From contig OU612065.1 of the NCBI GenBank assembly GCA_914767715.1, positions 14,694,001 to 14,758,000 of the forward strand: DNA of 64,000 nucleotides, written 5' to 3'. Of the stretch, positions 2,136 to 43,105 are shown one piece after another; the first letter of the stretch is position 1, and every line of letters begins with the position of its first letter. Below the pieces are notes generated by a model. The model had not been told where the DNA came from. It searched no databases and was given only the letters and a program-made list of their open reading frames with translations. Source of the stretch: Membranipora membranacea (lineage: Eukaryota; Bryozoa; Gymnolaemata; Cheilostomatida; Membraniporidae). The translations under genes were made by a program, and so were the position numbers.

Positions 2136-5100
2136 ATGGGTAATGCTGTATCACATTCAGGAGGAGGCCTACAGTTAATCAAAGAGAAAGCCTCCGGAAT
2201 GTCACCCAAGGCTCAAGAGATCCTTTTAACATTACTCTTAACTGGTTTATCAACGGGGGCAGCATATCTTATTCTTAATAAGATTCTGGCGAAGCTGGAT
2301 CCAACAAACAAGGACAAGATAAAGTCACAGGAAGTAGTGAGTACTGTCATGTGTTAGTTGTGTGTATGTTTAGTTTACATTTGCATCATTATTGTTGCCT
2401 TTTAAGTTGGCAGACGGTTGTTATGAGAGGCTTTTTTTGGGGCTTAAAAACATCCCCTCAACTGTTTGAGCATATTAATCAAATAGTTCATTTGAATTTG
2501 TATGTAGACAGACAGCTTTTAGGTACTTTGCGCAGAGATAGTTAAGTTATGTGAGCGATTTAATGTAATTTTGAACATGTCTCTTGGTATAGAACACCAG
2601 TACTTTGGCTAACTTCAATTCCCCTATATATTTGATAGCGCAAATTATCTTGAAGCTGGGAACGTGGATACCGGTAGTCCCTAGTGCTTCTCATTATTTG
2701 AAGCTTGTTGACATTTTAGTGATGGTAAAAATTTATAAGTCTTTGTAAGCTGTGACACTAGTACTGTTATATTGGGGGTAAGAGAGAAAATGGGATATCA
2801 CAATGACTATTGATTGGCTATTAATGTGGCCATTGATTGTTGCTATTTTTGAGACCATACTTCCTGTAACTCCACAGTTCCGTCTTCTTCAACAGGATCT
2901 TTCAACCCGTTTCCATTTTCATATACATTGTAAAATTCTACATAAAAAACCATATCAGTATTCAGGTCAAGTTGAAATCTGATGCAGCTGCTTTGAGACA
3001 ATTACAATAAATATTTGGGCTTAGCCTTTTCATGCGGCCAAATGAGTTGCCGGGTGTAAAGGCTAGTTTGGTCTACCTTTTGGCCATAGAGTTGAACTGA
3101 CAGAAACATATCTATGCTCTATCTATCCAAGGAGTACTTGAACTATCAAGACCAACTGTATAAGTGCCGAAATGTAAATGGGGATTAGAATGAAGCAAAA
3201 TGAATCTAAGACTGATCCTCTTAGTCATACCCAGCTTGTTTATGGTCACATGTTATGTGTATTTAAGGCAGCAGACCTCATGAATAGAATAGGTATCGAG
3301 ATTAAAGGAGATTTGAATGACTACGAGCTTTGCATCGCTTCCAATCTTGTGGACACAAGAGACATAAATGTTAATTGGGAAGATATTGGCGGTCTGCAAT
3401 CAACTATTGATGAGATCAATGAAGTTGTTATCCTGCCATTCACCAGACCTGATCTCTTCAAATCATCTGAGTTATTACGTCCTCCAAAAGGTATGAAGCT
3501 TTCCAGGTTACTGATTCACGTTTTATTGCCATAATTCTCCCTGGTAAACATTCCAAAGTTTACTATTCTGCTTGTGTAAGGATTGTACAGTATTTTTCGT
3601 TCCACAGCATCCCTGATTTTGTTATTGCACTGAGGAGTCCTTTCCAAACAAATAACATTTCGATTGAATAAATTTCTGTAAAACACGTGTGTTTTCATCA
3701 AAAAACCTTACCTTTTATCAGTATTGATGAGCAAGGAGTTAGAGTGAACTAGGTATGAGAGGTAGCTCAGTTGGTTTGTGGGAGGTGGCTCAGTTAGTTA
3801 GAGCGACTGCAGCGGGATTAAAACTCAAGATCTCCAACACTTGCGCATTGGATATCTTAGGTTTGAATCCCGCTGCAGTCTTCCAACTACTGGGCTCAAT
3901 TGACGCCCCAGGTGTGCTCCCCCCTGCCTGCACACTGAGAGCAACTTGGCGCCAAATACGGCGGCCACGCCCTTAAACTACTGCTGCCACCCATGCAAAT
4001 TTGTGCTCATTGAATTCTGCATAGCTCCAAGATAATTAATTGAGACTTAAATCTCATAATTGTCACCTAATGGGCAAATAATTTGCACAAACTGATCTTT
4101 AAAATCAGGGCATGAAATCTACGCACCAGCTAATGACGTGTACAGTATGCATTAGTAAGACGGTAACTACGTCACCCGTGCCGGTAGACAATTAATTTCA
4201 TACCCTAGTTTTGACGATCAGTTTGTGCAAGTTATTTGCTCATTAGGTGACAATGCTGAGATTGCAGCCTCATTTTATTAGTTTTGAGCTATACAGAATT
4301 CTATAAGCACACATTTGGCTGTGTGGCAGCAGTGGTTTAAGGCACCTTCATTTCTCAGTCTTCGGACAGAGACAGACTTACGATTTTAACTCCTTTACCA
4401 CACTTGCAATGTCCATCATAGTTGAATTACAACAAATGGAATGTTTTGTAGGAGTCTTACTACATGGACCTCCTGGTTGTGGGAAAACAATGTTAGCCAA
4501 GGCTACGGCTAAAGCATCAGGGGCACGTTTCATCAATCTACAAGCGTCAGCACTATTTGACAAGTGGTATGGCGAATCCCAAAAGAGAGCTGAAGCCATA
4601 TTTTCATTGGTGAGTGTTTGATATATCATTTCTAAGGTCTATGCATGGTTTTTTTTATAGACAGTTTTCTGTGCTCTAATTTGAGCCTCTATTCGGAGTT
4701 GTCCTCTCACCCTTTCATTAAATTTTGAGTTACAAGTTTGTCCAAGGAGTTAACTCCTTGGTTTGTCACAGTATGTCTAGCAAGCTGTTAAACTTACCTT
4801 CTCTTAATCCTCATTTTTTTCTACGAAATCCCTAAGCATAAATCATAGCTAAAAAACCCAATTCTAGCATAAATTAAGTAATGACCCCTCCCTATATAAC
4901 CTTTTTTTCTTGACTATTTTTATGATGTGATTATAAATAATTTGTTGCATCAGTTTTACACACACAGGAGTTCATCACATATGCAATATACATGTTCTGA
5001 ATAGCTTACACCATGGCAAACCAGATGAATGAATCAACAATTAAAATATATCGGCAGCATTCTATACTGATTTGTTCTGATTATTGAGTATGTCAGGCAG

Positions 5101-20335: not shown

Positions 20336-23300
20336 ATGATGTTCTCACAGAGTTCACCGCTAGCACCTCTAGCATTACTTATATCTTTGGCCACTATTAT
20401 TTACGGTAAGTGCAAAACACCATTACACACATGCAGTATGTGTCATACTATACCGGAACAGAGGACATGATCAGCTGGTCAAGATGCACTTGGTATCATG
20501 TTTGGACAGACAATAGTCTTTGTTCATTCAACTAAGCTAAGCAAAAGATAGAAGTTTCCCTCAAACAAAACACAAACATAAACCCATAAACATGTTTTGG
20601 AATTACCTAAACAGTAACATTGTTTTGTATGTAAAACAGGTAGGTTTTCACACTTTCACTGTCATGACACCTGCTCTCATCTGTATGTTGTATCAGGCAC
20701 TGAAAAGCTGGAATCAGAAATGTTTTTATAGCCCTTTGTGTTGACAATTCACTTGAGCTAATATTCATGATTATGAATCAATTATAATGCATTTAATTGT
20801 ACCCTTCGTTAATAAGCATAGAATTGACCAGAATGGATTTGTTAGGATTTAGTGCTTAGGTCAACGGATTAGAGGAATTTTAAAAGCAGAATAGATCCAA
20901 TACCAACTGCTTCCGAGGCAATTTAAACTGCTCAGTTCATAACCTAGGATGTCATGACATTCTATCTTGTAGCTGACATTATTTTTGGCATTATCAGCAT
21001 CAACAAATAAAACTCAGGAATGTGTCATCATCAATAATTTGGATTTTGCAAAATGTTGATCGAATTAACCTTGTCAGCAGGTTACATCACATATGAATAC
21101 GTGAGAGTTCAGCCCATGGCTTCACAGTCCTCCTCTGAGCTGTGTTAATTTTGCTGTGAGGTATTGCCTCAAGGCGTACTTCAAAGTCATGGCCTATCGA
21201 TATGAAGGGATCATGAGATATGCTGTTGTTATACAGCAAGTCCCATGAGATTATAAGAAACTGCTGTGAAGATCAGAATGTCTGATACGCCTATTATTGA
21301 GAGAATCACAATGTATTGATCAATAACTACTGGGTAACTGTGTTATAGCTGTCCTGTAGCATGGGCTGCTGCTGCGAATCCTTTATAGTCTATTGATGAA
21401 GAATCTAGTGCCGATCTGTTAATGACATGTTATGCTGTGATGTTGTCAAGTTGAAGGGCACTTTCTATCTGATATTATCAAATTAGCCAGGGTGTAGGAT
21501 TCAGTGTTTTGTCCGTTTGGAGACAATCATCCACAAGGATTACTTTTGTGCTCTGCCAGGATGCATTCTCAATTTAAAAGCAGATGTTGCTCTAATTCTG
21601 CTACTTCGTTTATCCATTATTATCTGTCATTAGGACCATTATCATGAAATTATGGGCCTAGTTGAATGATGTCAGGTGCGTTGCCATGTCAAATTGAGGC
21701 AATGATGACAACAATGACCCAATTATCACTATTTGCAGTGTCTTGGAAATAAAAAGGCGCTATTACCTGGCGGCTTTGCCCTCTGTATTAGTCTGTCTGA
21801 AATCAATTTTTCTTTTTTTTTTTGCAGGCCAAGAGCTGATAGATGCCCCTCCTGTGATTATCTCACCAGCAAACCTAGACAAGCCAGAAAATCTTGTGAC
21901 TATTGGAAAAATTTCTGAGCAAGTAAATTCGTTGACATGTACAGCGAGCAATGCTGAGACAGTGGAGTGGGTATACTTAGATGAAGCAAACTCACAGACT
22001 TATAAAGTAGTATCAAATAATGTATGGACAGTGTTACCTCCTGACACAGATGGTGATACTGGAGATGTGTCCAGAACAATAACGGATCAGGGAATGACAA
22101 ACAATGCTGAAAGATCTGATCAGACTGGATATTACAAGTGTATAGCTAAAACTAGTGTTAATGGCAATGACTATGTGACAACTACCCCACCCATCAGGTT
22201 CATCTCTCCAGGTGAGAATTTTAATGACATATTGGCGACTCGCAGCTTGAGCCAACTTTTTGATTTAAAAAAGGCATTTCAAAATTGTTCCCACAATGCA
22301 TCTGTAGTCTGATTATCAGGTTGATCTATTGGGTACTCCCTCCTGGACCTAAAGCAACTTGCATCATGGGATACCTTCACATTTCTTTCTTGTTCAAAGT
22401 TATGATTTCAACACTATAAGATGGTGTTACTCATAATGATGTTTGTTAGAGACCAGTGTGTAAGGTCATAGTGTAAATAGATACTTTAAACTGTATGTTT
22501 TGTGGTTTTAGTTACCCTGGTCAGAGGAGATAACTGAGAATACTGTAAACACTTATGTTTGTTTTATCCAGGGAGGATGGTTTATCACTCATTTTCATAA
22601 CATGTCATAAACCATTATCTGATAAAAAAAAGAGTATAGGTTTTGGACCCAATAGCACCATCTGGGATTATGAGAATCAATTTTATGTCTCTCAGTCTCC
22701 CTTTGCTCCGCAAAACATGGCAGACAAAGATGCCAACTTTAGACTCAAAGTGCTAGCAAACCATAGTATATCAATCAAGTGACTATAAGCCTGGCCAAAT
22801 CCCATACTGGAGCAAAATGTTGGTGAAAACTGCGGTGGTCTTATCAGCTTATCTTGTTTGTAAAAAAATATGTTTTTTTTTACATTTCTACAGCTGTGAC
22901 AATGAGAGGCTCATATGTACCAGTGAGAGATTCTTCAGTGGGACAATACAGTCCTCATTCGCTCAAATGTATCGCTGACATGGAGATCAAGCCAAATGAC
23001 CTCTTTGATTTCAATGTGATAAAATTTGTTTGGTTCAGATATGGTGAACAACTGCAGGTGATTGAGGAGGATACTCGTGTTACAATTAATCCAAAGACAG
23101 GTACATAAAACATTCATACAGTCATAGGTTAGCCTTGTCAAGCGGCCATGGTTTTCTGGCTTTTTATGGTGGCCGTGGCTAGTCATAGGTACTATACTAC
23201 TGTCAGGCAGCAAAACTAACAATTATTTTGTATAGATTTATTGTATTGGGAAATATATTGATAGAGATCATTAGTTATCTCATGACTCATCCTCTTCCGA

Positions 23301-26300
23301 TAACATAGAACTTTGATTGATTTTTATATAGGCTTTATTCCCCCCTCCCGCTCAAAATAACACATGAATGAGTGGTTGTAAGATTGTATATTATTCATCT
23401 TTGTTCCAGGTGATCTGTATTTCGCCTACATTAAGGAAGACGATAGCACTGGAACTGGGGATGGTGGTGATGAGTACCAGTGCCGTATATTCGTGGCAGA
23501 TCAAGTGCAAGAGACAATAGCCAGTAGATATAAACTGGCAGTCACTGCTAATGGTGACGATGAGCCTCCTTATCAACTGGTCTATCCAAAGGAATACAAA
23601 GATAGAAAAGTGTCTTGTATAGAAGGAACAGACTGTACGGTGACCTGTATATATGCTGGAAGGTAGGGGGTCAAAGCCAATCCTTGGTTGTGCAGGAACT
23701 GGTCTCAATAAAAAAATGTTCACTGCCGATAGGTAAAAGCCAGCAACTAGGAAATGAGCTAAGATTGGGGCTGAGGCTGGAGCACCTTTATCAAAAGCTC
23801 TTCAGAATTCAAATTTAGATGAGTCATATCTTTATATGTCTGTCACAACTCTGAATCATAACTCCCCCCATTATCACTGGATATTTCATTATAACAAATG
23901 GAAGGAATTGTCAAGTATTCACAATTAGCATCATATTATATTATTTTAATGCTGTTACCCATGTGATTTGTAATTTTTGCAGAGAGTTAGGATCAGACCC
24001 TCCTAATCCTAACTTTGTACCTCCGAGCAGCACTTTTATCACTGACTATAAAGGGAACAATGCTGAATTCCAAGCTATAGATGATGCCGAAGGAAAGTGG
24101 CAATGTAATATTGATTCAGATCCACTGAAAGCTGCTGAAATAGACGTGAGTTGATTTCTTCATCTTTGTCTGTCTTGTTGGCATTCTTCAACCTGCCGGG
24201 GGTCTGTCGGGCGGGGTAAGAGGCTAGAGGGCTCAGACTAGGCTATGGCTCAACTTGTTCTGATATTCACCCGATCTTTTTTCCATGAATTTTTTGTTTT
24301 TTTTTACAGGCTTATGTCATATGTAGCTGTTAGGTAGAACGCTATATTTATACGTTGTGATTGAGCTCTAAAGAAATATTTGTTCACCGTATTTTAGACA
24401 AGCTTCTTATAGACAATCCATTGCGTCACTCTGTCCGATGTACTTTTATCAAACATGTGAGAGCAAATTATGATTGATTATCAGGTGGAGATAAGAAACT
24501 ATCCTTCTGTTCCTGCTGACAATATGGCTGACCAGTTTGTTGAAGTTGGTACTGATGTAGAGTTTGAATGTAATGCAGATCATATCAATATCAGGGATCT
24601 TTTCTTCTACTACAATGGTAATCTGATCCAGGCACCCGCAACTCCAGGAGGCATAGGTAAGTCTATATATGTAACTCTGTAGGGCTTCTCAGTAGGGCTT
24701 ACCATGCTTGTAAGCTTCAAACAAAGTGCACAGGACGACTGTATCCCTATTTCCCTGACATTCTACAGTGTGAGATGTTTTTTTACGCTCCTTGGGTCTC
24801 AAAAGTGTCTGCAGTGTTAGCAAGGGAACTTGCTTTGAGTTGGAGTGATGTGTAGTAGAATTACGCTGACTCGCTGATTATATTGTTTAGAGGCAGATGG
24901 TTGAAACAGCACCATCTATCCATCTACTTGCAGCTCTTGAGCCCAAATTTGGGTGTGAATGTCGAAAATGTAAGGCAGATGTTTGAACCATTTGATGTGT
25001 TTTGAGGAAAAACAGCTACAGAAAATACTCACATATTGATTTTAAGTCTGGACTAAGACATTCACACTTTACAGTTACAATCCAATATTTATACCTAGAG
25101 GGGAAATTTTTTGACAATACTCTCTAATATGGCGGCCTTGATATAGATTGTTGTTAACCAGTGACCCACGCCAACAACATGAATTTTGCTACTAGTGCTG
25201 TCTAACAATCGATTTGCTGCCGACTTGTGCACTTTTAGGTTTTTGCTTCACATAGTTATTGAATTGTTTTTAGGATTCATAAATTTCACAAATAACCTAA
25301 GTGCAAAGCTATTGAAAGAGTCATGATCGGATATTATTTGACTTTTTAGTTTCAGACAACTATTGTAAGTCAATACATTTATGTAACAGTCAAGGCGATA
25401 GGTAGTCATATACTTGGTGATATGTAGATAACTTTGTGGCCTAGTGTACATAGGCAGGTGATAATCTACAACCATTACACAAAAGTTACGCGTTAGAACA
25501 CAGACAGAGTCAATATTTGAACAGTTGCTTGTTAGTCATACCAACCACTACGTGTTGTGTGCGAGTATGATTTCCATTAGCGACATCTGGCTCTTTGTAC
25601 GCACCACGGAAATGATGTTTGATCTTATAAAAAACACTGCATATGAGAATCGATATGCTATAATTGAGTTGGCGGTTGTTGAACAAATTGGTTTTGTGTG
25701 TGGCCTCACAATTATAGGTGAGTTCAACATATCTGTCAACCTAAATATGATGTACAACGTTCAATTTATCTGAATCCGGGCAAAGTTACCGACACCATTA
25801 TCACATGGTACCAGATCTCTGCTAGTATTTTTCCCTCATTCCATATTCACATTGTCTCTTTTAGGTAACCCACCCCATGTCAATTATAAGGCAGGATCGA
25901 CAGCTATCAAAATTTCCAATGCTCAGAGAAACCACTCGTCTATGGTATCATGTATGGCAATCAACTCTGCTGGAACCAAATTTAAAGCTGCTCAGCTGAA
26001 CATATATGGTAGGTGAATGATGGAGTGTATTTAGTCCCGTGTAACTTTACAAAAAATATTATAAACATCACAAGGAAACTATGCAGATGACTCGCTAGCA
26101 CAAATAAAAGTTTTGTTACGATGTTATGAATATAACCCTTTTGCATCGCATGCAATAACTGATTTTTTTTAAATATTCCAGATAAACCCAATATTACATT
26201 ATCCCCTGCTACTGGTTATGAAATTACCACAGATAGGAAAAACACCTCTATAGATTATAAGTTTGAGTGCATGGTTGAGATGGATCCTAAGGTAACTGAT

Positions 26301-29300
26301 GCCACTATTCACTGGAGGACCAATCATACAGACGTCGAACTGAGCGGACAAAAGATCACAGGAGAACATGACTCAGGGGTCAAGGTGAGGTGTTTATATA
26401 ATAAGTTGAGGAATGGTTTGTTCTTATCCAATCTTAAAAACTTACTCCAGGCTCCTAAATTTTTATGAAGTCCCAAAAAAATCGCAATATCGATTGATAC
26501 TCATGCACATGTTCAACTGCTGCATTGTACTGTAAACCTGTAGTGGTGTATATATGTTTGGCATCTGAATGTAAATTCGCAAAAAAAAAGATGTGTTGAC
26601 AACTGCAGCATGTGGAGTATGATAAACATAATATATTATTCATCATCGTCTCTCTGATGAATAAATCACACTGATGTCAGCACGTACACTATTAACTCAG
26701 TTGGTCTGAGTTTACTGCTGGTCTATAGTCAATCAGTAGGTCAATTTTTACTTCTGTGATAGTAAGTAAGGCACGGAGAACATCATGCTCTTCGTAGAAA
26801 TATAATATACATGTACATATTATATATCAATGATGTTATTGATTCCTTGCCATATTAGATTATGTTAAAGGATCGCTGTGTAGTTTCATCTCCCTAAACA
26901 CAGAAGGGCACTTCAAAGACTGTACTTGTTAAATTAATCATATTTGTGTAAATTTGTCCTTTGCTTACATGAAATTGATCCTGACCTGGATATACATTGC
27001 AATCTCAGACGTCTTATATCTCAAAACAATTTCTTGGGAGATTAGAAGGTGCAATGTCATCAAACTACAACAAATAATAATATGTAACTGATACAATAAC
27101 TTTATGAGGTCATTCTGGGTAATGTTTCGCTTTCGCAGTTCCCAGGTTTGTGTTTTTTAATGTCTTGTTGTCAAGTTCTAATTAGTTACTCGATCTCTCT
27201 ACTATCTAAATGCGGGTAACAAGATCTGCAAATGGTTTAGTTGCATATTTTCAGATTTCTGGTTAATAAAACTGACAAGAAAGAGCACTACATGTTGTCA
27301 ACAGCAGAAAAATTTTGATTGTTTTCAAGCTGGACATATACATCGTGATTTGTTCAATGCAAAGAATGTTAGAGGAGAGTATTATAGGGCAGTGCACTTA
27401 ATTATATGGATACATATAACAGAAAGATCAGACAATAATGGAAATCCCTGTCTGAGTTCGATCTATAAATGTAATCGTCAACATTAGACAAATTATGTTT
27501 ATATTTAATATTGTATCTTCTTCTCTTTTTTAGTCTGTACATACATCAAAGTACAACACAATCACCTATCAAATAAGCTCAACCTTGACATTCCTTGTGG
27601 ATCTAGACACACAAGATAAGATATTTGGTGGACATTGGGAGTGCGTTGTTGAGTTTGAGATTCCAGGCAGTGCTGGTGATTTAATATCTAGTAGTGAACC
27701 TGTACCTTTTACAAGTGCTATAGGTGGGTGTCTTATATTCATGGAGAGTTGTGCGAACTTAGTACACTACGTTATCAAACTTCAAAATAGAACAACTTGA
27801 ATGAGCTGAACACCGATAATGTGTTTTCCTCAAGGTGATTGTAACAGTCAGTACCGCTCTCAGTCTACCCTGATGATAATGGTGTGAAATCTGGAGGCCG
27901 TATTTGCAATCATCTTAGGTTGACCACTGAGATCCAAGTATCATATGGCCGAGATGAGAAGTACTTCATGACGTATACTTATATACACATTTTGTAATTG
28001 TTGTAGCTAACAAGGGCAAAGTAATCGCAGCGGCAGGCTTCAAAGACTGGTGGATAATTGGAGTCGTCGTGGCAATCTTCTTCTTACTGCTGTTAGTTAT
28101 TCTCATTGTTTGCTGTGTGAAACATCACAAAGGTGAACAATATTACGGTGAGTCAACCTATTATAGATACCCATGCCAAGTATTTTTTCTCTTACTTCCT
28201 TGTCTATTTAGTGCTGCCTTGCCCTGCCTTCTCTGAGTCAGAAGTGGGGTTTGGAACTTGACCAGCTGCCAAAACCTTTTTTGCTGTGAGGCATCTGAAT
28301 GATTTTTTTACTTCCTTCTTTGACGCAGGGCACACCTTCCACTGATTTGATTACTCATTTTATAGAGGGGTCACCAAAACTTTTTTTTACAAAATCTTCA
28401 TATAATGTGGGAAATTTTCCACAGTAGGATGTTTTCATTGGCTGGAGTGGCTATCCACAGGCCAGTGAATCAGACATCAAAATGAACTGCCGCTAGTCTA
28501 TATGCCCTCAGGGTATTTTGAATTCTATCAAGACTGAATAAGTCTCAAATGACACTAATAATTGTTCATTGAACAAGATATGAAGTGGTGTTTAAAATTC
28601 TTCATCTAGCAGCTCTAAAAAAGGTTGTTGACTCAGGGTGACAAAAGAAAGCAATTTCAGCGATCATCTTCATTAATTCCAAAGTCAATATTAGCTGTCA
28701 GTGTGAAGAGATAACTGCGACAAAGGTATTGTGTAATAGTGTGTACTGCATGGGGCTTAGGGCTTTGCATTATAATGTGGTGCCTAACTTCACACTTAGA
28801 GCACTGATTAGTATCATCATTGAATCATTTAGAACTAAGGATTCCCTGAGGCCAGGTAATCAGCTAGTGACAGGACATTTATCCTAGTATATGACAATCT
28901 GCATCCTTGAGACACTATTCTCTCCAGTTGATGTCATTAAGAGAGTTCTTCGGGTTAACTGATCATCTGTTACAAAGAAGACATGTCTTCTAACACACCC
29001 ATAATGCACTTGTCATTTATTAGCTAATGTATAATTGGTAATTTTATAACAGCACCTTTTTTCTTTATAGTTGATGAAAAAGAAAGAATGGCTGGACACA
29101 ATCCTGAAGAAGAGATGGGGCTGTATGGATTTAGTGATTATAAGAGACCGTAAGTATTCTTTATAACTAAATAATAAAAAAAAACTTGAAACTGGAAGTT
29201 GGCTATGGGTTTTTTGAAAAATATTAGTTTATGTACTGATGTTTCGTTCACACAGTGAGGAAAATCTGCCATCTTCCAGTTAACAGTTTTACTTAATTAG

Positions 29301-31304
29301 TTTTTCTCAGCTTGTAGAAACCCAGCGCCCCAAACCTTTACTGTTGATTGAAAAGCTAAATGAATTTCATGTTGTCAAAATATCTTGCAATATCAAAAAA
29401 TAAATATTAAAAGTTATCTGCTCAGTGGAACAGGGAGGCTAACTCTCCGTAATCAAGTCAAATTTTGAGATTATCGCGCTTTTTTCCTTGCGCATTTTCA
29501 AAATGTGGCAGTCTGCAGATTATTATATACACCTCTACCCAGTCTTGTTACCTTCTCGTACTTTCCAGTTTCTATGTTTTGTGAATATTTTGTGTGTCTT
29601 TTATCTAATAGAGCAACAGGAGGCTATGTGCCAATGTATATGAGGTATAGTTAAATTTCCATTAAGCTCTGTCCTTATGCCATACCTGTACTCAATTAAT
29701 TTTGCATTCCTGTTAATCATCTTGCCTGGTCATATCAATGTTGTTGGGATCTGAAATCTCACTACGTTGCCTCATTGTTGTGTATGGGTTGATTTTCATA
29801 CACTATAAAGTCTGGTGTTCGCGTCCTTAATACTTATGTTCACAAAATATGTATGGCTGTATTCTGTCTGGTGTCAGGGCTCTCCGGATTCTTTACCACC
29901 TGGGTCAGGCTGATGCATTGAACTTAGCCTGTCTTGACAAACTTTTTTCGGTGAGGTTTCGTTTCCCCTCCCCTACTGAACGATGCTTGTCAAGACAGAC
30001 TACATTGAACTAAGAATATAGACTTCCTAATTCTTTTCTCTCCAGTCTGTGAATGTTCTAATACCTGTGTTAGATGATGATTTTCCCTCTCTGGTTATAA
30101 CCCTATCTCCATGTGTGTTAATTTCTTCTTACTGTGTGGTGGTTGGTGCTTGTCCAGGAAAATGATGCAAATTTACACAAGTCATAATATGCACCATTTT
30201 GGAGTGTTTACGATTAGCCAACATGTTGGCTCGCATTAGCTGAGAACCAACATAGTGTCTAATGGCCTCGGATGACCTCTAGCATAGTTTAAAGAAAAGG
30301 CTGTATTAAAATGTTTCTTTTACAGATAATTGTAATTCTGGCTTTTCTAGTTAGAAGATCATACTCGTGGTATGGCAATTCAGATAAATTAATTAACATC
30401 ATAATGATACTAAAACTTATTCATCTTCCATGCTTTTGTAGCCATTCCAATTCTCCAGCAGATATAAGCTTATTAAACGAATACTTGTAATAGCCCATTT
30501 GCTGAAACTATAAAACTACCAAATGCCACCACAGAGCGCAGACGCCCTAAGTACATCATTTTGAAAATTCAATTATATGCATGTTGCCTTCCATTGGTCA
30601 AAATTGCAATCCATTTTTTTCTCCCAGATAGTTTAGTAACTGCATCCTCATACCCACACACTTTGTAGTCATTGAGTCATATGGAAGTCCCTATATAAAT
30701 TTTTAAAGTGGGCAGCAACATATATGAATATTGACTTGGTCATACATATATAATAGATCTCTAAGTGTGTATGGTGCCAATATCCTGCTGGCAGCGATCT
30801 GCCTGCCCTTATTAATTGTCCAAGTTGGGCCAATTCGCATGTTTTAGTATATGAAAAAGCTATTCTGATGTCGCAATGAAGGAAATGTCAACATTTATAT
30901 TTTTCATTTTCTGATTAGGGAGTGTCCCATCTTTGGCCAAAGGGATGCAATTGGACCAGTTATCTGGCTTAATCTTGTTTTAGAATGTGCATGACGATGG
31001 TTAGAGGGAAATGGGATGGTTTAGTTAGACCAATAACAGAGAAAAACGTTGGATCTCATCAATGATTTGATGGATCTATCAAAAGTGCCTGAGTGACATC
31101 CTTTTGCAAACAAATTCTCTTTTCTATTTTAGTGATCAAGACCCCATAAAAGGAAGTAGGACTTCGATGGACATGAGTGATAAACCTATGGAATCAGAAG
31201 GAGGAAGCATGGATGAATATGGTGATATCGACCCGGGAAGATTTAATGAAGACGGATCTTTTATAGGAATATACGGAAAATCTTCAACAAACATGGACGT
31301 CTGA
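20336..31304 (+). CDS. L1CAM/neuroglian-type Ig cell adhesion molecule without FNIII repeats
   Basis: Thirteen coding exons: 20336-20405, 21828-22211, 22894-23100, 23410-23662, 23983-24145, 24485-24656, 25865-26008, 26182-26384, 27534-27723, 28007-28147, 29071-29149, 29612-29644, 31133-31304. Phases agree and give 736 residues. Order: signal peptide (1-23); five Ig-like domains (Ig1 C61/W71/C128; Ig2 with LKC, FVWF, GDLYFAY and YQC; Ig3 and Ig4 lacking the core Trp; Ig5 with FEC, HWR and WEC); TM at ~610-633; tail of ~100 residues. Ig2 GDLYFAY is typical of L1-family Ig2. The tail has KHHKGEQYYVDEKE like the L1 juxtamembrane region, then YVPM (674-677), DEYGDID and FNEDGSFIGIY (717-727), matching the L1 ankyrin-binding FIGQY segment at 10 of 11 positions. 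The C-terminus MDV fits a class II PDZ ligand. L1 proteins link homophilic adhesion to the ankyrin-spectrin skeleton; this role is inferred. Bilaterian L1s have six Ig and several FNIII domains; none of the latter is visible here. Four NxS/T sites lie in Ig4-Ig5. No symbol given because orthology is untested. Confidence 0.9.
29612..29644 (+). other. 33-nt symmetric microexon (exon 12) encoding GGYVPMYM
   Basis: Exon 12 of the L1-like gene. It follows acceptor ctaatag and precedes a weak donor, gtatag. It enters and leaves in phase 2, so including or skipping it keeps the frame (CC|A..AG|T, or CC|T). It encodes A-T-G-G-Y-V-P-M-Y-M. If the following intron is retained, the frame reads MRYS and stops at 29653-29655, losing the ankyrin motif. 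Confidence 0.75.
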
Positions 31305-32560: not shown

Positions 32561-35500
32561 TCAACTATTTTCCAGCAAAGGATATCGTTTTCTCCATCGA
32601 GCCACTTTATCCTTGAACAGTGCAGGGTCCATTCTAACCTGAGAAAGCTTTAGAGGCATGCAACCAAATTTTTTATACATGATGTTCACACAATTATCTG
32701 CATTAGACATTGTATGATCATAAGCCATTGAGTTAGAGGACGTGTAACTTAGCCTTTGTCCTACTTTTATAGGAGGAAGCCCCGTTATGTCGCTGACTAT
32801 AAAGTTGAGCAATATATCAAAGCACTGTTCTACGCTGTCACTATCTGAACTGTTCCATGTGTCTATGTGTGTGGTCAGTAAGTGAAGATAATATCTGTAA
32901 ATGAGAAGAAAGTTAATATTACATATCAACCAAACCCGCAGGTAATGTGCCAACGACAGCAGGGCGCCAGGAGTCGGTCTAAATTCTGATATTTATGAGA
33001 GAAAGCTTGAAAGAAGGTACCATGAATTTAATGTGGGAAAGTTATCTCGTGTTGTGGTTAGAGAGAACACAATAACGAAGCCATACCTGTATTATAAGAT
33101 AGCGCCAAGAGATAGATGCTGTTATTTCTAAGGATACTTGTAAATAGGTCACAGTTAATTAACACTATATATATACAAATCAATCAGTAATCCCAAAAAA
33201 ATGTCCCTGATCCAGTTGGAAAAATCAAAACATCACGTATTTAGTCTGTCAGGAATGTTATTAACCAAAAAAATATTAATTAATTAATTGAAATTCTATC
33301 GATGGCAATCTCGATTAAAAGGTTCTTTCTTCCATGCCAGAGCACCATATTTATTTACCATAACTATTTTACGCAAAGGATGTATGTCACATACAAACTT
33401 TTATGTCAGCAAACTAATCTTTAGTTTAAAACTGATACTTTATTACTGAATTTAAGAAGTCAAAACAAATAAGGGAATATTTTCAATGTGAAATGTCATA
33501 AAAGGCAGAGAAAATCCACCTACTTGTGTATGACGGACATGTCTGATAAGACTATTGAGTATTGATTGAACACTTTTGAAGTGTAGTGATATTTCTCCTC
33601 TCCATTATGCCATAGATGTGATCTAGAGAGATGGCCAACGATCCTCTCTGGATACTCTTTCCAAACAGAAAACGCAAAGTCGATCTGAAAAATAAAAAGG
33701 TAGTAACAAATTGGTAGTTGTCCTGCCAACCTCAAAGTGGAAATAACTCTCTAATTGACAATTTAGACGGTTGAGTTTACTTGAAATGATGAAACCTCCC
33801 TGATGAAATGCACCTGATAGTAGTATAATGCAACTAAAATATTACTTTTCATGTCCGTTCTTAGTCATTTTTGACTGTCTCATACTGTGACGTGAAAGCC
33901 TTAAACGATGAGATTAAACTTATTATTGCAGACATGTGTTAGAAACCTAAATCTTCTCTTAAAAAGGAAACATTGAATCAGAACAATTCATTCCAGAATA
34001 ATGCAAAGCTTTATTTCCCTCCCCCCTTCCCTGACATATGGTGGTAGGTATTTGTTATCATAAAGTACTTGTTTGGCTAGTAGGCGACTTCAAGTATGTC
34101 CACCAGCTAACAATGCCTACAGATCCCTAAGTGATACACCTCATCTCTCCATAGGCCATTACGACATGCTTTGTTATGCGTGCGAGGGAAGGAGAGCATT
34201 TATTGTCCTCAGTGCAGTTATATTCTGTAACATCAGGAATCATGCCTGCTAACATGTATGTTGCCACGTAGAACAAGTTTGATCCAATTGCCTGCATTCC
34301 TGTTGCTCCCTTCCACTGGTCACGCCGCAGGCAAAGGGATCAAGAATTAACTACCAATCCATAGGGATTGTCTTGATATATGCCCATGCCAACTGATTGT
34401 ACCTTTTATACACAAAAGTGTCGAGAGAGGCAAAGCATGATAAGTATGATTTTTTCAGCATTGCAACATTTGCTGATGCTCCCAACCTATATAATTCTTT
34501 GAACTCAATTAAAAGAGGGTGTACACTATAGACAGTTTTCTGAGCTCTGATTTAGGCCTCTATTCGGAGTTGTCCTCTCTCCAGTTTGGTACTTTTAACC
34601 CACGCCACATAGGAAAAACGTGCTGAAAAGAGGGTTATCTTGAAATCCGCTTATAGTAGGATAAAAGGATTTTTGATTCAGAATCTGCGCCATTGAAAAC
34701 TGATAGGGACATAGTTTGGAAAATATTTTTGGTATTCGGTTAATCAATTTTATCAATTTCTGCCAGTTTTGCGGACCATTTGGCAGAATTTTTCTTGAAT
34801 TTCGTCATTAAAATTAAGATTTATCAACATTCAAGTCTCCAATGATTTGGAAACCCTGTCTCCCAGGGTTTTCAATGGTGTGAATCAAAAATCAATCTTA
34901 TCCTAACATAAGCGGTTTTCAAGAAAACCCTCTTTCAGCACGTTTTTCCTATGCTGCGTGGGTTAAAAGTACCAAACTGGAGAGAGGACAACTCCAAATT
35001 GAGGCATAAATCAAAGCTCAGAAAACTGTCTATTGTACGCCATATTACTCACAGGAATCAGAAAAGGCCATTATGTCAGACATATCTCCTGATTTGTAAA
35101 ACTAGAAATGGCTGTTGACTGTTGCTGATAATATTATCTCAGACAATTTGAGAGGTAAAGAAAGTTGTATTATAGACCAATGGAGACAACTCCGAAAATT
35201 GTGTGTTGGCATCATAAGGAAGGGTTACACATTTTACAAGATTTCTCAGCTCGTAGTTTATATTTTGGAAAAATAATTCCGTATTTGGAATCCTCATACT
35301 TGATTACATATTTTTTATAGTCTGTCACACATCTCCTGCTAAAAAAATTAAGTGTCCACCAACTGTCCACCTGGGAGCAGACAATTACCGCAAAGTGGTA
35401 GTTAATTCTTGGTCCCTTTGCCTGCGGCGTGACCAGTGGATCGGGAGCAACTCAGAATGCAGGCAAATATACCAAACTAGTTGCCACGTGACTATTGTCA

Positions 35501-38500
35501 ACATCACAGTTATCTTCTCTTTAACTTTTTAAAGCAAACTTTCTCCTTGCCTACATACCACACTTAGACCACCCTGATACCACACTACTAAGATTTCAAG
35601 GGGCAATTACCTCTTCAGTGAGCACAGAGTCTCTGTGATTGATTATTAGCACCGCTTCTGTGGGGAACTCCTTGTATAAACCTAAAGAGTCCACAACAGT
35701 CTGCAATCAAAAGAGAATGAATATCCTATACGAGATCCTATACACATCTAAAACAAGGTACAGGCTTAGACCAAGTTTGATCCAATATGCCTGCAGATCC
35801 TATCCTACTGGTGAGCCGGCGGCGGCTCAAACACTAAATACAGGCAAACTAGATCATGCTTGATCTAGTACAGGCTGGGCTTTGGAAGTTTTGGTTATGG
35901 CTGCGCAATATCAAATATTTACTTGATCGTGTTTTGAGAATAAACGTGACACTAACATATTTTGTTCAGGAAAGTACATCTAACAAAAGGATGATGAGAC
36001 GAATTCAATCCGCTGCCAGTTGGATGTTATGCAAGCTGACATGTGTGCGAATCCTCTCAAGTGTAGATATGGCTGAAGAAATTCATAGAATCAAAATTAA
36101 GCAGCAGTTATATTGATTCAATATTATGAATAAAACATGCACGTTCTATAAATCTGTTTTTTATATACAATAAAGTTCTGCATCACAGACAAATTTATAG
36201 AGCGTTGCTTCATATGATATGGCAAACACAACACATTAAAAGTACCAAACCCTCCATCATCCTGCAAACCATATGGAAATTCTATCAAGCTTGCAGTTAT
36301 AGGCAGAATATTTGTGGTATGTCACATGTCATATCTTGAAGATGGTTAGTCTCTAAAATATTCAGGAATGACGAATTATGCAGTGTAAAACAGGTACTTA
36401 CATTGATAAATTTGACATGGGTTGGCTTGCTTTCAATAGATTTTGCCACTGAGGCCACATAAGGCAGTACATCATTTCTTCCGATAACAAAAATATAGAG
36501 CTACAAAAATAGACATAATAAGTAAGACTAAACAAGAAATTCCAATGGTTTAGATTTTCACAATTTATCTGGTAATTTAATGCAGGACAGCCTGTGGAAA
36601 AAGTTTAATTGGGATGAGTTGATCACTATAAGTACATCAGCTGTTAGGCAGCCTTCAGCTTTTTGTCAACGGCTGATGGAAAAATTGAATGTTTATAAAA
36701 TTTTTTTGCAGCACATGTTGATCACTACAACTCAATCACTACAACTGAGTAGACATAAAATACCTACACTACTACACACAGCCAACTAGCTGAATAAATT
36801 GGATCAAGATACACTTAACATGTGTTCAACAGATGCATTGAAAGGCATTTCGTATAAATCCTAATCAGTACAAAATTACATTTAAACAACATACCATAAT
36901 ATGGAAATATGGACAATGAAGGTTATGCTTTTCATATTTGAAGCTTGTTATTACCGTATAGATATATACTATACCGTATTACCATATAGTATGTTATCAT
37001 TATAAATGTATATGTTTTTACCGTATGTATATGACTAGCAGTCGATATGCTATCTATGACATGTTTGAGGGACATGCTGCGCTCCCTTATGTAGAGTAGA
37101 GCTGTGAACTGAGTGGCTGAGTTAGTGAGAGTGAAAAACGGGAATAGTGAGAGATCCTTTGAGTACGTAGTAGTAAGAGCGTAAGCACCGGGGTAAGTAT
37201 TCCAACTGCCAACTGAGTGAGCTTGATGTTTATCTACTCTGTCCTTGATTATCTGAAAAATAATGAATACATTTAATTATTATAAAGATCCAGGAGAAGA
37301 ATGATACAGCGGCCGGAACAATCCATCATAAAAGCTCCGACATAAGGTCTCAAACCCATGCCTCCTGAAGTGCCAATTGCCTCACAGTGAGTAGCAAGCG
37401 CTCATCTCGCCATCTCGCCATCGCAAAAAGAAAATGGGTTGATGGCGCTAATCAACAAGCTTGAAACTTGTTATCACCAACAGCCAACTAGACGTGGAGT
37501 GTATCAAATTTAAAATGATGATGATAGAACTTGGTACAAACTTGGAGAGTGGTTAGAACAATCTTCTCTACGGAGGAGAAATACTTAGTCCACAGAAGTT
37601 GTGATTGCTGTTGAAGTGAGCTGATTGTAGAAAAGGGTATCGCCCTCACGGAAAACGGCAACTACGAAAAAAGGGAAAAGAAAACCTTTATTAATGATAA
37701 GGCGACTCTCTCAGCTATTCATATTACAAGAGAAACATTTCGATCGTGACATTTGATATTTTGTGAAATTTGATGAGCCGGAAGCAAAAGTTGATTTCAC
37801 GATTGCCTAACTTATTATGTCAAATGTCAATTAATGTAGTGAATTAATTGAAATGAATAAAGAGCAACTTTCTTAAAAGTCATGAACAGTGGCTTTCTCT
37901 GTAAAAGAGTTAATTAATTAGATCACATTATCCTGCAAAATGGGCATAAATGACACCAAATTTCTCAAAACAATCTTCGAATAAAATTTATAGGTCAGCT
38001 GGTACTGGTAATATATCAGCTCCTGACGTTTTATTAAAGCAGGCTAATATAAGCTATGGAAATCATTGATTTGAGCTTATACACACTTTATATATTTATT
38101 ACACATGCGGGATATCAAAATCACTGCTGGCTTAACCAGTGATGATACCCAGTAGCTTAGACTGCATCACTTAGTAAAATGAGTACTTTATTTAATCACT
38201 AGGCGCACATTCTAACCAAGGTCAGGTCTTTATGGCGCATGCTGACTAAGTAGCCTTAATACTGATAGCAATACAGGGCAAGTCAGTGCACTCCCGGAGG
38301 CTAGATTTTGAATAGGGCAATTTTAGCAAAATATCCACAGCCTAATCCTCTTGTCAACAAATAGGTGATAAATCCCTCTAGAATTATACTGAGCGTATTA
38401 TACTTGCATTGTTGGCTGTGCTGTCAAACGTTTGAACTGTACAAGATTGAAGTGTTTACAAGATTTGCAAGTGTCCCAGACATGACTAGCCTGTATACTT

Positions 38501-41500
38501 TCTTATTCAATTATCCCACATGTTTCTGCTGCAGGGCCTCGAGTAACTGGGGTTGTGATTTGATGATGCCATTACAATACCTGATATAAAAGGCTCTCAT
38601 CGCCCATTATTGCAGCCTTTCTCCAGTCTATGACCTCAGAGAAAGGTAATTCCCAATTATCACTAAGTAGCACCGGTATACAGCCATACTGCAGCACCTC
38701 CAGAAACCTGAAAATAACAGTAATATGGATTCGTCTATCGGCCGTTAACTTCAACAAACAATCATGAAGCTCAGTGCACTCACTGTATGACAGTGCTTGA
38801 TTTCTGATACTTTTGAAAGCAAAATCAGCATGAATAATTGAAGAGGTTTTTGAAGTTCAGAGAATCAAACGGATGCGTTTTGAAGCCTAATAGCAGCGTT
38901 ACCAGGAAACAAGGTTATTAATTTGAATTGGTTAATGTAAAGAGGTATATTTGGCAAGACAATAACAAACGGATGTGCAAGAAGATTGTGAGACAAATGT
39001 AGAATGCTAACAGGTCTTCTGAGAATTTGTAACAAAAAATGTAATTCAGCATCTCCATTGATATTTAGATAGACTGTTTTTTCGGACTTAAAAACACTGA
39101 TTTCAGACATGAGCACAGACAAAACTATTTGCTTAAAATTTTGAGTAAGCATGCCATAGCTCCAGGATTTGAAAAACAACAAAGCCCAGTGATTAATATA
39201 ATAATAACATCATAACAAATATCCTTTGTTCATTTTTGCCCTCAGTTGACAAACTAACCTCCCCTACCATTATTGGTAGGTCAGTCACTCACAGCCATTC
39301 ATTTGATTCATTGAGAACTTGTTTATAACAGTTTCATAACTATTAGCTAATTTTTGTAGCGCACACCCTCCCTTTGTGGCTGAGAGGCTTTAAAATTTCG
39401 CAATTACTCGCTAAATATGCTAAATTCACAGTTTTAGTAATCAATGAGTGATACCAGTGCTCCAACAGCCCTAATGTTTTATACCCTTTCTGTGTTTATT
39501 GAATGTAATGGTACAAGCCAATGGCATGAGCCAATGACATGAGTCAATGACATAAGCGAACATAGTTTAAGTGCTCAAATGGTGCAAGATGCTGGTAGAG
39601 GCATTTCATTATCAACCACTTTCTCTCCGAGGGGAGAAAGTGGTTGATAATGAAATGCCTCTACCAGCATCTCGCACCGTTTGAGCACTGAAACTAGAGC
39701 GAACAGCTAGAATAGTCATTCACAGGCTTGCTTAATAACGCTGTGAATGGCTTTAGTTAGGGCGCTTGTTATGCACTGTCAACTAATCAGTGTCACAAGA
39801 GATGTGTGTCATAGTGCCATTTGGGATTGTTTCAGCCTCCAGCACTCTGGTGTGTATCTATTCCGGTCCAGACATAGATATGGCAATCGCTGTCTGAAAC
39901 TTGTCCCCCCTAAGGGGTATCAATAATTTAGTTTTACATTCTTCTAGACGATGAGGTCACTTTTAATTTCTACTATAACAGGAATGGAAAGACTCCTGGC
40001 AGGGAATTTGGGGGAAACACCTTCCTAAGTGTCTCTTCTATAGCAAGGTTAGCGTTTACCTAACACCTATACATGTATTATAGTCATATTTAAATGTGTG
40101 GTAAATCTTATTCTTGTACTGTTAGAGCACAATGCAGCTTAATGACGCAACCAGTAAGCAGTCTGGTTAGTTCGGCCAATTTCGATTTTGTGACAAAAAC
40201 TGAGACTGCGGGAGTGTGGGAGTGTGGGAATGTGGGAGTGTGGGAGTGTGGGAGTGTGGGAGTGTATACAGTTATACAGTTGAGACATGAGGGATGCTGC
40301 TCACCTGAATGACCCGAGACGTCTCCCTCGAGGAACTAAACAGAATGTAGAGTTAGCTAATAAGTCTAGGTATTCATATCTGAAAAATGAAGAGGAATTT
40401 AAATTAGCAGATAGCCGATGGGAACAATAGGATTGAAATGCTTCCAGTCATGAAGGATTTGGTGCCTAAACTCAAAGGCTAGCCGGGAATAAACATGAAA
40501 TATTCAACAACGACAAAAGTGCACATAGACCAACTGAGTCACTGCGTCTCCAAACAACAGTGCAGATCAAAGGGGATAATTGGGCCACAACAAAGATTTC
40601 ACAAATGCTCCTTAATTTTGAAAATATCAACATGAAATATAATTGCGGTCCTCTAACATTATCAACTGTGGTTACATAAATTATTATTTATGTTCCTAAT
40701 TAACCAGTGGCATGAATTATTACTGTACTGTCAACAAAAAAGATGTGATATGAAGACTATAACAGATAGGAGAGGGGGGGGGGGGGGGTGCATGGGGAGG
40801 ACTACTCATTTTCACATTTGTATGCAGGTGAGCAAAATGAACAAAGAGCAGGATATACTGAGTGTACTGAAATCTAAGAAGCAGTAGAACCAGAGACTTT
40901 AGATATCCATAGTCTCTGGTAGAACTAAATAGCCATATAGAACACAGGCTGATACTTTGGTGCTCAGGTTTTTAATACCCAGATACTATTTCAAGATGTT
41001 TATACATCATTATAATTGTTTTAGAAATGAGCTGAAGTTTATCAGGCACTTATGTCATCCACTATCACAATTCACTTTTAGTCTTTTCACTCATTCAATG
41101 ACCTGAGGCATTTTTCTAGAAAAATAGTGATACTACTCCTTTATTACTAGCTGCTGAGCTTGCACCTGAATAAGCAGTATGCTGTTGAGAGTCAGATAAA
41201 AAGCGGCTGGCTTCTCAGGTAATTTGGTCAGACTATAATTAAATAATTTATAAAGACCCAGGGGCAGCAAAGCAGTTTACTAATAATACATCAACACTGC
41301 CAATACAACAGCAGCATCAGCATTCCACGTTGTTAGCCTTATCAGGTGGCCATTGTCAACCAATCGTCAGATAACTTAGTCAGAACAGAAGCAAATTATC
41401 TTATTAGTACACTCTCTAATTTTTTTTACAATTTAACACTCACAAGCCATTCTTGTGATAATGTAATGGAGCATGAATTAGAAATCAGAGAACTTCAACT

Positions 41501-43105
41501 AGCAAAAAGTGATAGACAGACAGGAATCATTATTACAAATGACAACTGCCTACAGAAAAGCTTATATTATGTCTGGGTCAGCCAAATAACATGGATAATT
41601 ATTTCAAGAGTAATATTTTGTATCTACAATACAACTGAGGTGCAAATATTTTTTGCTCTTATCCCTTCATAACTCAATACTCATTACACTGAGACTCTGA
41701 TTTCAATCAAAGTTATATACATACATATGTGAAGTTTGATTTAATTATGTTATCATCTACAGTATTTCACTTACTTATCATAGAGCTCGTTATCCTCAGC
41801 ACACCTATCATCAGCGACTTTCTGCCAGCCGGTGCCATGTCTACAAGTGGTCAGCATGATGATATCCTTGCCATTCATCATATGATGCAGTCCATTCCTA
41901 CTCACCGAACCGACCCCTGATAGATACCTCTTGCCTTTAAATGCTAACATGTACTTCTTATTGGATGGAACTTTTAAGTTTTCAAGTTTACCTGGAGCCC
42001 CTGCTCTTTCAGGTAGCTCTTTGTGGAAAAGAGGTAGTGAAATGTCAAACCCTGCCCTGAATTTCTGAGTACTAATACTGGCCTTGGCTAATACTGCTTG
42101 TCCTATATCGATACCAAAGTGTTCCGAGTACTCAGGCCATGTTCCTGAGTATAAATTGTATATCACATGGTTTCTGCCGTTATTCCAGTAAGGCAGGTTG
42201 GTAAGCTTCTGTTGTAGGTTTGATACATAGTTTTGGGACCCGGTGTCCCTATCTAAAGTGTCTACTCCGCTTATAAATATACATGCTTTGTTGACATCTG
42301 AAGTAAAAAATGGTGATGACTTAATAGTGTTGATTATTTTTAGATAAGATTCGGACGGAGGATTTTCTGTTTCTGATAAAGGGTATACAAAAACCTTGAA
42401 GCCCTGTTTGCACTTGGAAAAGTCAAAGCAGTTATCCATTCGGCAATCGGCCGCTATCTTTGGTTGTGGAGTGAAGGCATCGTTTATTAGGGCTGGTATA
42501 TTTTGCGGGGTAAACCCAGTGTGATACGGTGTGATGTAAGAGTGAGAGGATATATACACTGGAGGTACGGGGAGACTGTCTGCAGTGTGTACTCCGTCGG
42601 GCCTGGATAACGGAGATAATAATACTATGTATATACTTATATCAGTATTGATAAACTACCAGCAGGGAAAAAAATAGTACCAGCATTTGAACTAAACAAC
42701 TTGTTCAGACTAAGCCTGTTGGGTAACCATGGAGTCCAATCCAATGAACAAGCAATTAACTCACTCAGGTATAATAAATTTTTACAACACTGTCTGGAAA
42801 CTTTACCACAAAGGAGGAATAATTTTGTCTCAGATAGCTGTTTGTCCTTCTGTTACATAAAAACCACCGGGTAAGACACAAAAGAGCATAGCTCAAGGGT
42901 ATCGTAGTATGTGCATGGGCTCAAATTAGCAACTTGTCATTCAGAAGATGACATAAGATTATAATTGATACATAATATATTTGGAATACATATATATTCA
43001 AAATTACACATTGGCTACTAACCTGACACATATTGGGCGGAATACTATCAAGCTGATCACTGCTAAACATAGTAAGGCTGTGTAGATAAAAACACGGAGT
43101 TGCAT
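32561..43105 (-). CDS. EXT1: Exostosin-1 type heparan sulfate glycosyltransferase
   Basis: Ten exons on the minus strand: 43105-43023, 42602-41775, 40379-40305, 38707-38581, 37661-37542, 37252-37022, 36500-36402, 35700-35611, 33684-33524, 32894-32561. Phases agree and give 715 residues (human EXT1 746). Golgi type II protein that with EXT2 polymerises heparan sulfate from GlcA and GlcNAc. Seen: N-terminal anchor (residues ~4-24); GT47 domain from [12 protein letters not shown] (81) through [45 protein letters not shown], then [17 protein letters not shown] and [12 protein letters not shown]; linker [14 protein letters not shown]64 domain with [38 protein letters not shown]. It matches EXT1 better than EXT2, e.g. 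the SQxRxDPxLFKD..RKxY terminus. The GT64 DXD site is altered: where human has DEDTVL this reads HRDSVL (543-548), with one extra residue before it. GT47 looks intact. Introns are repeat-rich (34275-35870, 37311-37430, 39518-39696, 40210-40265). Confidence 0.95.
34275..35480. repeat. Inverted repeat pair (~85-bp arms) enclosing a palindromic MITE
   Basis: In EXT1 intron 8. The left arm at 34275-34356 (aagtttg..ttgcctgcattc..gttgctccc..ccactggtcacgcc..aattaactacca) is closely matched in reverse complement by 35396-35480. The 0.5-kb palindrome at 34521-35038 lies between the arms. A third, more diverged partial copy lies at 35771-35815. The outer limits and any target duplication could not be fixed. 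Confidence 0.7.
34521..35038. mobile_element. ~518-bp palindromic MITE
   Basis: The arms, each well over 150 bp, are reverse complements, from gtacactatagacagttttctg to cagaaaactgtctattgtac. Both contain the shared segments ggagttgtcctctctccagt, the gtactttta..ccca stretch, and aaaacgtgctgaaa with gagggtt. The centre (about 34690-34860) is less symmetric and AT-rich. No coding frame was seen. A fragment of the same family lies at 4657-4712, so it is dispersed. The target duplication is unresolved because the flanks are themselves GTAC palindromes. Confidence 0.8.
35771..35870 (+). repeat. Third copy of the outer repeat plus a small palindrome
   Basis: 35771-35815 (ccaagtttgatccaatatgcctgca..ctactggtgagccgg) resembles the arm at 34275-34356. 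Just after it, actagatca-tgct-tgatctagt at 35848-35869 forms a perfect 9-bp stem. Confidence 0.5.
37311..37430 (-). repeat. tRNA-derived SINE (family B), copy 1
   Basis: In EXT1 intron 5, sense on the minus strand like the gene. Minus-strand reading gives an A-box-like GATGGCGAGATGAGCGC, then a B-box-like GGGTTTGAGACC and GGAGCTTTTATGATGGATTG. The same order of motifs occurs on the minus strand at 57341-57440. The spacing suggests a Ser/Leu-type tRNA ancestor. This is not a functional tRNA. Confidence 0.55.
39518..39556 (+). repeat. 13-bp tandem repeat, three units
   Basis: Three diverged units of ccaatgRcatgag / tcaatgacataag in EXT1 intron 3, only a few bases left of the long hairpin at 39563-39696. 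Confidence 0.7.
39563..39696. repeat. Near-perfect 134-bp hairpin (65-bp arms, almost no loop)
   Basis: In EXT1 intron 3. Left arm tagttta-gtgctcaaa..gcatttcattatcaaccactttctctcc; the right arm is its reverse complement with about four mismatches. The symmetry centre lies at 39629/39630. There is no coding capacity. Confidence 0.9.
40210..40265 (+). repeat. 8-bp G-rich minisatellite (GGGAGTGT), seven units
   Basis: Seven consecutive units, one with GGGAATGT. It lies 39 bases inside EXT1 intron 3 from the 5' splice site at 40304. The plus strand has enough spaced GGG runs to form a G-quadruplex; the transcript carries the C-rich strand. Confidence 0.9.
40774..40788 (+). repeat. 15-base G run
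   Basis: Homopolymer in EXT1 intron 2; the length may be affected by sequencing or assembly. Confidence 0.8.

Follow-up and report, generated by a model that had tools for sequence, protein, structure and literature searches.

The stretch analysed here, called the window, comprises 64,000 nucleotides (nt) of contig OU612065.1 of the bryozoan Membranipora membranacea and carries an L1-like gene of 13 exons at positions 20336-31304 (+). Every intron follows the GT..AG rule, and the joined frame encodes a 736-residue protein with, in order, a signal peptide, five immunoglobulin (Ig) domains, a single membrane helix and an L1-type ankyrin-binding tail, and with no fibronectin type III (FNIII) domain. 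With good confidence, the product is considered a single-pass adhesion molecule of the L1 family, belonging to a spiralian branch of bryozoans and molluscs that is without Ig5 and FNIII domains, both of which were most likely lost once.

Domain content of the L1-like protein

A Pfam search identified Bravo_FIGEY (PF13882) at residues 634-730 with an E-value of 2.8e-16, and clearly recognized one of the Ig domains, as I-set/Ig_3 at residues 374-463. No fn3 model matched the 736 residues at E up to 1. Canonical L1 proteins have six Ig domains, three to five FNIII domains between these and the membrane, a single membrane helix and a FIGQY-type ankyrin-binding tail (PF13882). Here the tail, with FIGIY as its motif, and the single helix (from the window sequence, and in the model of the Watersipora relative described below) are present, together with five Ig domains, Ig5 being absent, and no FNIII domain. 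Hidden Markov models (HMMs) of L1 FNIII domains, derived from up to 18 full-length proteins, were run on six-frame open stretches of at least 25 residues and had no match inside the gene at E<1, its introns included; the sole match in the window at this threshold (9.7 bits at 51875-51991) lies outside the L1-like gene. A crude FNIII motif pattern found no match on the plus strand of the window. Only 283 nt of intron separate the last Ig exon from the membrane exon, too little to accommodate FNIII exons.

The Ig domains were assigned by scanning the window protein and 15 short relatives with HMMs that represent Ig1-Ig6, Fn1-Fn5 and the tail of 18 full-length L1 proteins. In the first slot Ig1 scored best in 15 of the 16 short forms, the exception being the window protein itself (Ig6 4.9 and Ig1 3.7 bits, both meaningless), and in the second slot Ig2 was best in 15/16 (exception P0018, with Ig3 at 27.5 and Ig2 at 27.3 bits). 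Ig3 was best in all 16 in the third slot, with just 1.0 bit for the window, and Ig4 in all 16 in the fourth. The fifth slot was best matched by Ig6 in 15/16, and by 13.1 bits versus 1.7 bits for Ig5 in the window protein. Ig5 was the top match in 0 of the 80 domains of short forms. The domain order of the window protein would thus be Ig1-2-3-4-6-membrane-FIGxY tail, which is taken partly from its relatives, Ig1 and Ig3 being placed only by alignment to them.

The juxtamembrane segment reads KGEQYYV, compared with KGGKYSV as the L1 motif is written in the available part of PMC3796554; KG, Y and V are conserved. The region FNEDGSFIGIY aligned, with a weak E-value of 0.06, with neurofascin in the structure 7xce (neurofascin and ankyrin-3), and the tail is predicted to bind ankyrin via FIGxY. 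An ankyrin gene is found in the same genome (C2:24523239-24523771), where ZU5 exons match ankyrin-2 (3.4e-31 and 1.6e-11). Compared with the Watersipora relative, the Ig domains are 30-43% identical, the membrane region 50% and the tail 65%, so constraint is stronger on the tail.

A preliminary description of this gene from the sequence had placed exons 1-13 at the same positions, and both these and its motifs KGEQYYVDEKE, DEYGDID, FNEDGSFIGIY and GDLYFAY were recovered. Its estimate of ~40 residues between the last Ig cysteine and the membrane was right (C569; the hydrophobic stretch starts at ~610). Its assignment to the L1 family with an ankyrin-type tail is borne out by Bravo_FIGEY, the L1 HMMs and the trees, and its statement that FNIII domains are missing agrees with the searches above. 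It counted five Ig domains correctly, while the missing Ig5, and thus the Ig6 type of the fifth domain, had gone unnoticed. The concern that Ig and tail exons might stem from different genes was removed: both ends belong to one gene, because the Watersipora protein matches continuously between the signal peptide and the C-terminus, and 12 of the 13 exons recur with the same phases in a second gene of the genome.

Short L1 forms in bryozoans and molluscs

The best database match was P0001 of Watersipora subatra, likewise a cheilostome bryozoan. This protein of 719 residues is 38% identical over 99%, from the signal peptide to the C-terminus, has no fn3 model and is filed as 'neural cell adhesion molecule L1-like isoform X2'. 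For P0001, an AlphaFold model was obtained from a 27-row alignment; an attempt with 4 rows gave a predicted local distance difference test score of 33 and was unusable.

The genome (339 Mb in 18 contigs) was searched for further L1 genes. PF13882 matched twice, in the window gene and at C2:22828694-22828849, and both genes lack FNIII. A full-length L1 query found tails at the same two loci only, so a full-length L1 was not found in the genome among the 36 of 73 candidates scored. The strongest matches to this query, on the minus strand of C4:20274397-20301568, are long intron-poor Ig-FNIII open frames with no tail match, which presumably belong to a titin/twitchin-type muscle protein.

The second gene (C2, L003:106-9886) encodes 761 residues and repeats 12 of the 13 exons in identical phases, exon 12 being a candidate; its Ig domains were assigned via alignment to the window protein. 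From its last Ig exon to the first membrane exon there are 643 nt, in which no FNIII was found with the L1-derived HMMs, the only FNIII models applied near both genes (the window and 30 kb of C2). Within these 30 kb two weak Fn1 matches of 6.3 and 7.5 bits (E 0.57 and 0.24), located >10 kb upstream of exon 1, were taken for chance. It differs from the window gene in two tandem, near-identical membrane exons (L003 6457-6597 and 6632-6772), which may be alternatively spliced, and in its ankyrin motif NEDGSFINGQY, where a one-residue insertion (FINGQY) could weaken ankyrin binding.

A protein search with the window tail gave 10 candidates, of which two matched, the Watersipora protein and P0018 from octopus; as this tail-only search returned just 10 candidates, it says little about absence elsewhere. 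With P0018 as query, 14 of the best 120 of 279 passing proteins had no fn3 model and lengths of 592-688 residues. These come from Octopus bimaculoides, O. sinensis, Argonauta hians, Haliotis rufescens, H. rubra and nine others; one, P0027, begins within Ig1. The other 106 of the 120 listed carry fn3, and those named are from vertebrates, insects and a nematode, with no mollusc among the matches listed. That molluscs share the FNIII-less form had gone unnoticed in the preliminary description.

The octopus, Argonauta and Haliotis proteins P0018-P0020, P0023 and P0024 are filed as 'neuroglian' or 'neuroglian-like'. Like the window protein they have five Ig slots, a helix and a FIGxY tail, and no fn3 is listed for them; they differ in belonging to another phylum and in their 22-23% identity to the Watersipora form. 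Their database names conceal the missing FNIII domains and thereby a different molecule. Two tail motifs, both picked after inspection of the sequences, are confined to short forms: [VI]D[EK]KER in 14/17 and a DPEKELADSGFHD-like string in 16/17, compared with 0/122 other proteins each; Watersipora has neither.

Origin of the short form

In a tree of the membrane helix and tail, 16 short and 18 full-length rows were separated with support of 93/88. The Ig1-4 tree separated 17 short from 12 full-length rows (94/88; 65/85 with P0023 and P0024 cut short). When Ig1-4, Ig6 and the tail were combined, the 17 short forms were split from the 12 full-length L1 with 100/99. For the 12-row sets, near-copies and the long-branched nematode P0099 were left out of the 18, and an earlier Ig1-4 tree had kept 13; the second gene was added to the Ig1-4 and combined trees, the membrane helix and tail tree being built without it. 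The window protein thus shares with the octopus and abalone short forms the order Ig1-2-3-4-6, the absence of FNIII, the FIGxY tail and the grouping in the trees.

The trees are unrooted, so that the derived status of the short form depends on how the two forms are distributed among animals and not on the tree alone. Full-length L1 with six Ig domains and FNIII is present in vertebrates and ecdysozoans, thus in deuterostomes as well as protostomes, and the fifth domain of the short form resembles Ig6, which adjoins FNIII in full-length L1. For both reasons the short form is most simply seen as a derived form that arose within bilaterians, later than the adhesion-ankyrin link. This supports the secondary loss that the preliminary description had offered as one option. 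Its other option, a minimal or ancestral architecture, finds no support, as the short forms stand apart on one branch, and since a derived form leaves the origin of the adhesion-ankyrin link undated, neither does its suggestion that the gene bears on when this link arose.

Several observations weigh against reading the product as an L1-family adhesion molecule on a single derived branch. Midpoint rooting places the root on the long bryozoan branch, and the trees contain no identified spiralian full-length L1. The groups used in the approximately unbiased (AU) tests were named after tree inspection. The Ig1 and Ig3 scores of the window protein (3.7 and 1.0 bits) amount to nearly nothing, and the second gene scored only 3.7 (Ig1), 8.5 (Ig4) and 4.3 bits (Ig6). 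Near ties occurred at slot 2, in P0018 as given above and in P0020 (Ig2 20.1, Ig5 20.0 bits), and at slot 4 in P0001 (Ig4 28.8, Ig5 28.3 bits), whereas slot 5 was ambiguous in P0028 (Fn1 5.6, Ig6 4.1 bits) and weak in P0023 (4.1) and P0024 (3.0). In a control in which the vertebrates, the nematode, P0071 or the insect-like group were left out in turn while the underlying alignment was kept as built, 90/90 Ig domains, from 15 of the 18 full-length L1, were named correctly, but these scored far above most of the window's domains (>=35 bits), so accuracy at such low scores is unproven. Of the 27 rows behind the fold model, 12 are FNIII-bearing L1. The window tail has FIGIY instead of FIGQY, the variable position being A, D or Q in its kin, and the evidence for the ankyrin gene consists of its ZU5 exons.

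The alternative that survives best, although it is unlikely, is that FNIII and Ig5 were dropped separately in bryozoans and in molluscs, each group starting from a full-length L1 of its own, and that their likeness reflects no more than shared spiralian descent. The length of the bryozoan branch and the lack of an identified spiralian full-length L1 among the compared rows would suit it. The AU test also did not reject a split that puts the bryozoans with the full-length rows and keeps the other 14 short forms together (p-AU 0.368; 0.347 with P0029 and P0031 carrying a wrong Ig6 piece), though one origin allows this as well. Independent losses would require two identical, non-adjacent deletions (Ig5 and FNIII) across the short forms, and do not account readily for the tail motifs, even if these were chosen post hoc, or for the 100/99 split. 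Moreover, placing the bryozoans among full-length rows was rejected in three cases, with the vertebrates (p-AU 0.004), with P0071 (0.020) and with the ecdysozoan-like group (0.012).

It is very improbable, though less clearly so for the window protein taken by itself, that an unrelated Ig protein of the contactin, Robo or Dscam type gained an L1 tail by exon shuffling, since the Ig slots match L1 one by one, including Ig6 in the relatives (scored with L1 HMMs only), and the Ig1-4 and tail trees concur on the grouping. An ancestral minimal L1, to which FNIII was added later, was rejected and is hardly credible: its layout is simple, and the root was not inferred, its midpoint lying on the bryozoan branch, but vertebrate, insect and nematode full-length forms share Ig1-6 and FNIII, so that FNIII and Ig5 would have to be gained in parallel. 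The Ig6-like fifth domain also contradicts it, as does the domain structure conserved in most metazoan phyla according to the available part of PMC3796554. An artefact of gene model or assembly, with FNIII exons missed or collapsed, has a negligible probability: the window gene is known from genomic DNA alone, but the intron at the critical place measures 283 nt, and the same layout recurs in the second gene, Watersipora and the 14 further proteins, nine of which are on 2.1-4.4 kb contigs and therefore, to judge by this length, probably represent transcripts.

Returning to a single derived branch, the specific course of events is favoured only slightly over its alternatives: the whole FNIII stalk and Ig5 would have been lost once, before the bryozoan-mollusc split, and the short form would have replaced full-length L1 in bryozoans (two genes in this genome, with no full-length one found) and perhaps in molluscs, with the adhesive horseshoe and the ankyrin tail being sufficient for an L1-type molecule. 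Most likely, exon modules flanked by phase-1 introns would have been lost. Both introns at the sites in question (173 and 283 nt) are phase 1, and therefore loss of a whole module keeps the reading frame.

Gene coordinates, possible function and comparison with known L1 systems

The features of the L1-like gene are listed in the table.

Table. Exons and other features of the L1-like gene, in window positions.
Feature	Position	Strand	Basis
Exon 1: start codon and signal peptide (residues 1-23)	20336..20405	+	GT donor, open frame
Exon 2: Ig1	21828..22211	+	Splice sites; aligns with Watersipora Ig1
Exon 3: Ig2, first part	22894..23100	+	Splice sites; Ig2 HMM 17.2 bits, residues 178-269
Exon 4: Ig2, second part (GDLYFAY), and start of Ig3	23410..23662	+	Splice sites; 34.5% identity with Watersipora
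Exon 5: remainder of Ig3	23983..24145	+	Splice sites; alignment with Watersipora Ig3
Exon 6: Ig4, first part	24485..24656	+	Splice sites; Pfam I-set 374-463
Exon 7: Ig4, second part	25865..26008	+	Splice sites; Ig4 HMM 20.4 bits, residues 369-465
Phase-1 intron, 173 nt, where the missing Ig5 would be	26009..26181	+	Intron length, phase
Exon 8: Ig6-type domain, first part	26182..26384	+	Splice sites; Ig6 HMM 13.1 bits vs Ig5 1.7
Exon 9: Ig6-type domain, second part (WECVV)	27534..27723	+	Splice sites; Watersipora match
Phase-1 intron, 283 nt, where the missing FNIII would be	27724..28006	+	Length, phase; no FN HMM hits
Exon 10: membrane helix and start of juxtamembrane KHHKGEQYY	28007..28147	+	Splice sites; helix in model of Watersipora relative
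Exon 11: tail, VDEKERMAGHNPEEEMGLYGFSDYKRP	29071..29149	+	Splice sites; 75% identity over 28 residues with the genome's second gene
Exon 12: short tail exon ATGGYVPMYM	29612..29644	+	Splice sites; similar Watersipora segment
Exon 13: tail end, ankyrin motif, stop codon	31133..31304	+	Bravo_FIGEY 48 bits on exon; 70% identity with Watersipora
FNEDGSFIGIY, predicted ankyrin-binding motif (FIGxY)	31242..31274	+	Sequence; weak alignment to neurofascin segment of 7xce

Tail to tail with the L1-like gene, an exostosin-type glycosyltransferase gene occupies window positions 32564-42655 on the minus strand, with Pfam matches to GT47 at 41774-42655 and 38575-38856 and to GT64 at 32564-32992. Three open frames on the plus strand show resemblances by eye. 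That at 3178-3531 resembles an ATAD1-like AAA protein and that at 53759-54217 the end of a reverse transcriptase of the long interspersed nuclear element type, both without a Pfam match, and that at 56395-56823, which has a weak Pfam match to the tetratricopeptide repeat (TPR), resembles a CTR9-like TPR protein.

Adhesion, ankyrin binding and expression of the short form are predicted from sequence. Ig1-4 would fold into an adhesive horseshoe and bind the same or a related molecule on the facing cell, with Ig6 probably serving as a short spacer. Binding of ankyrin to the FIGxY tail would link the contact to spectrin-actin and would probably be switched off by tyrosine phosphorylation; a second cytoskeletal contact may be made by the KGxxYxV stretch next to the membrane. 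Without the stalk, membranes would come closer together than with canonical L1, and functions borne by FNIII would be gone. If a single derived branch is correct, it represents a natural experiment in which the adhesive and ankyrin-binding core is separated from the stalk, and narrower membrane spacing is predicted at contacts that use the short form.

A limited literature search on bryozoa and L1CAM returned no paper, and the titles and abstract openings covered did not mention an FNIII-less L1, which allows a weak claim of novelty. In the available parts of PMC2346466 and PMC3796554, FNIII counts among the fixed components of L1 proteins, and the latter describes the overall domain structure as conserved across most metazoan phyla. 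Leech Tractin is a spiralian L1-type protein that, as described in the available part of PMC2346466, has a FIGQY tail, six Ig and FNIII domains; a tail of this type is common to Tractin and the window protein, whereas six Ig domains and FNIII are found only in Tractin. Watersipora P0001 and the second gene have the same FNIII-less layout, the second gene also sharing the exon phases. With the L1 family as a whole (L1CAM, NrCAM, neurofascin and CHL1, and insect and nematode neuroglian), the window protein shares the order of Ig1-4, the Ig6-type domain on the membrane side, the helix and the Bravo_FIGEY tail with FIGxY, but it is without Ig5 and FNIII, and its outer part comprises ~600 residues compared with roughly 1000-1200.

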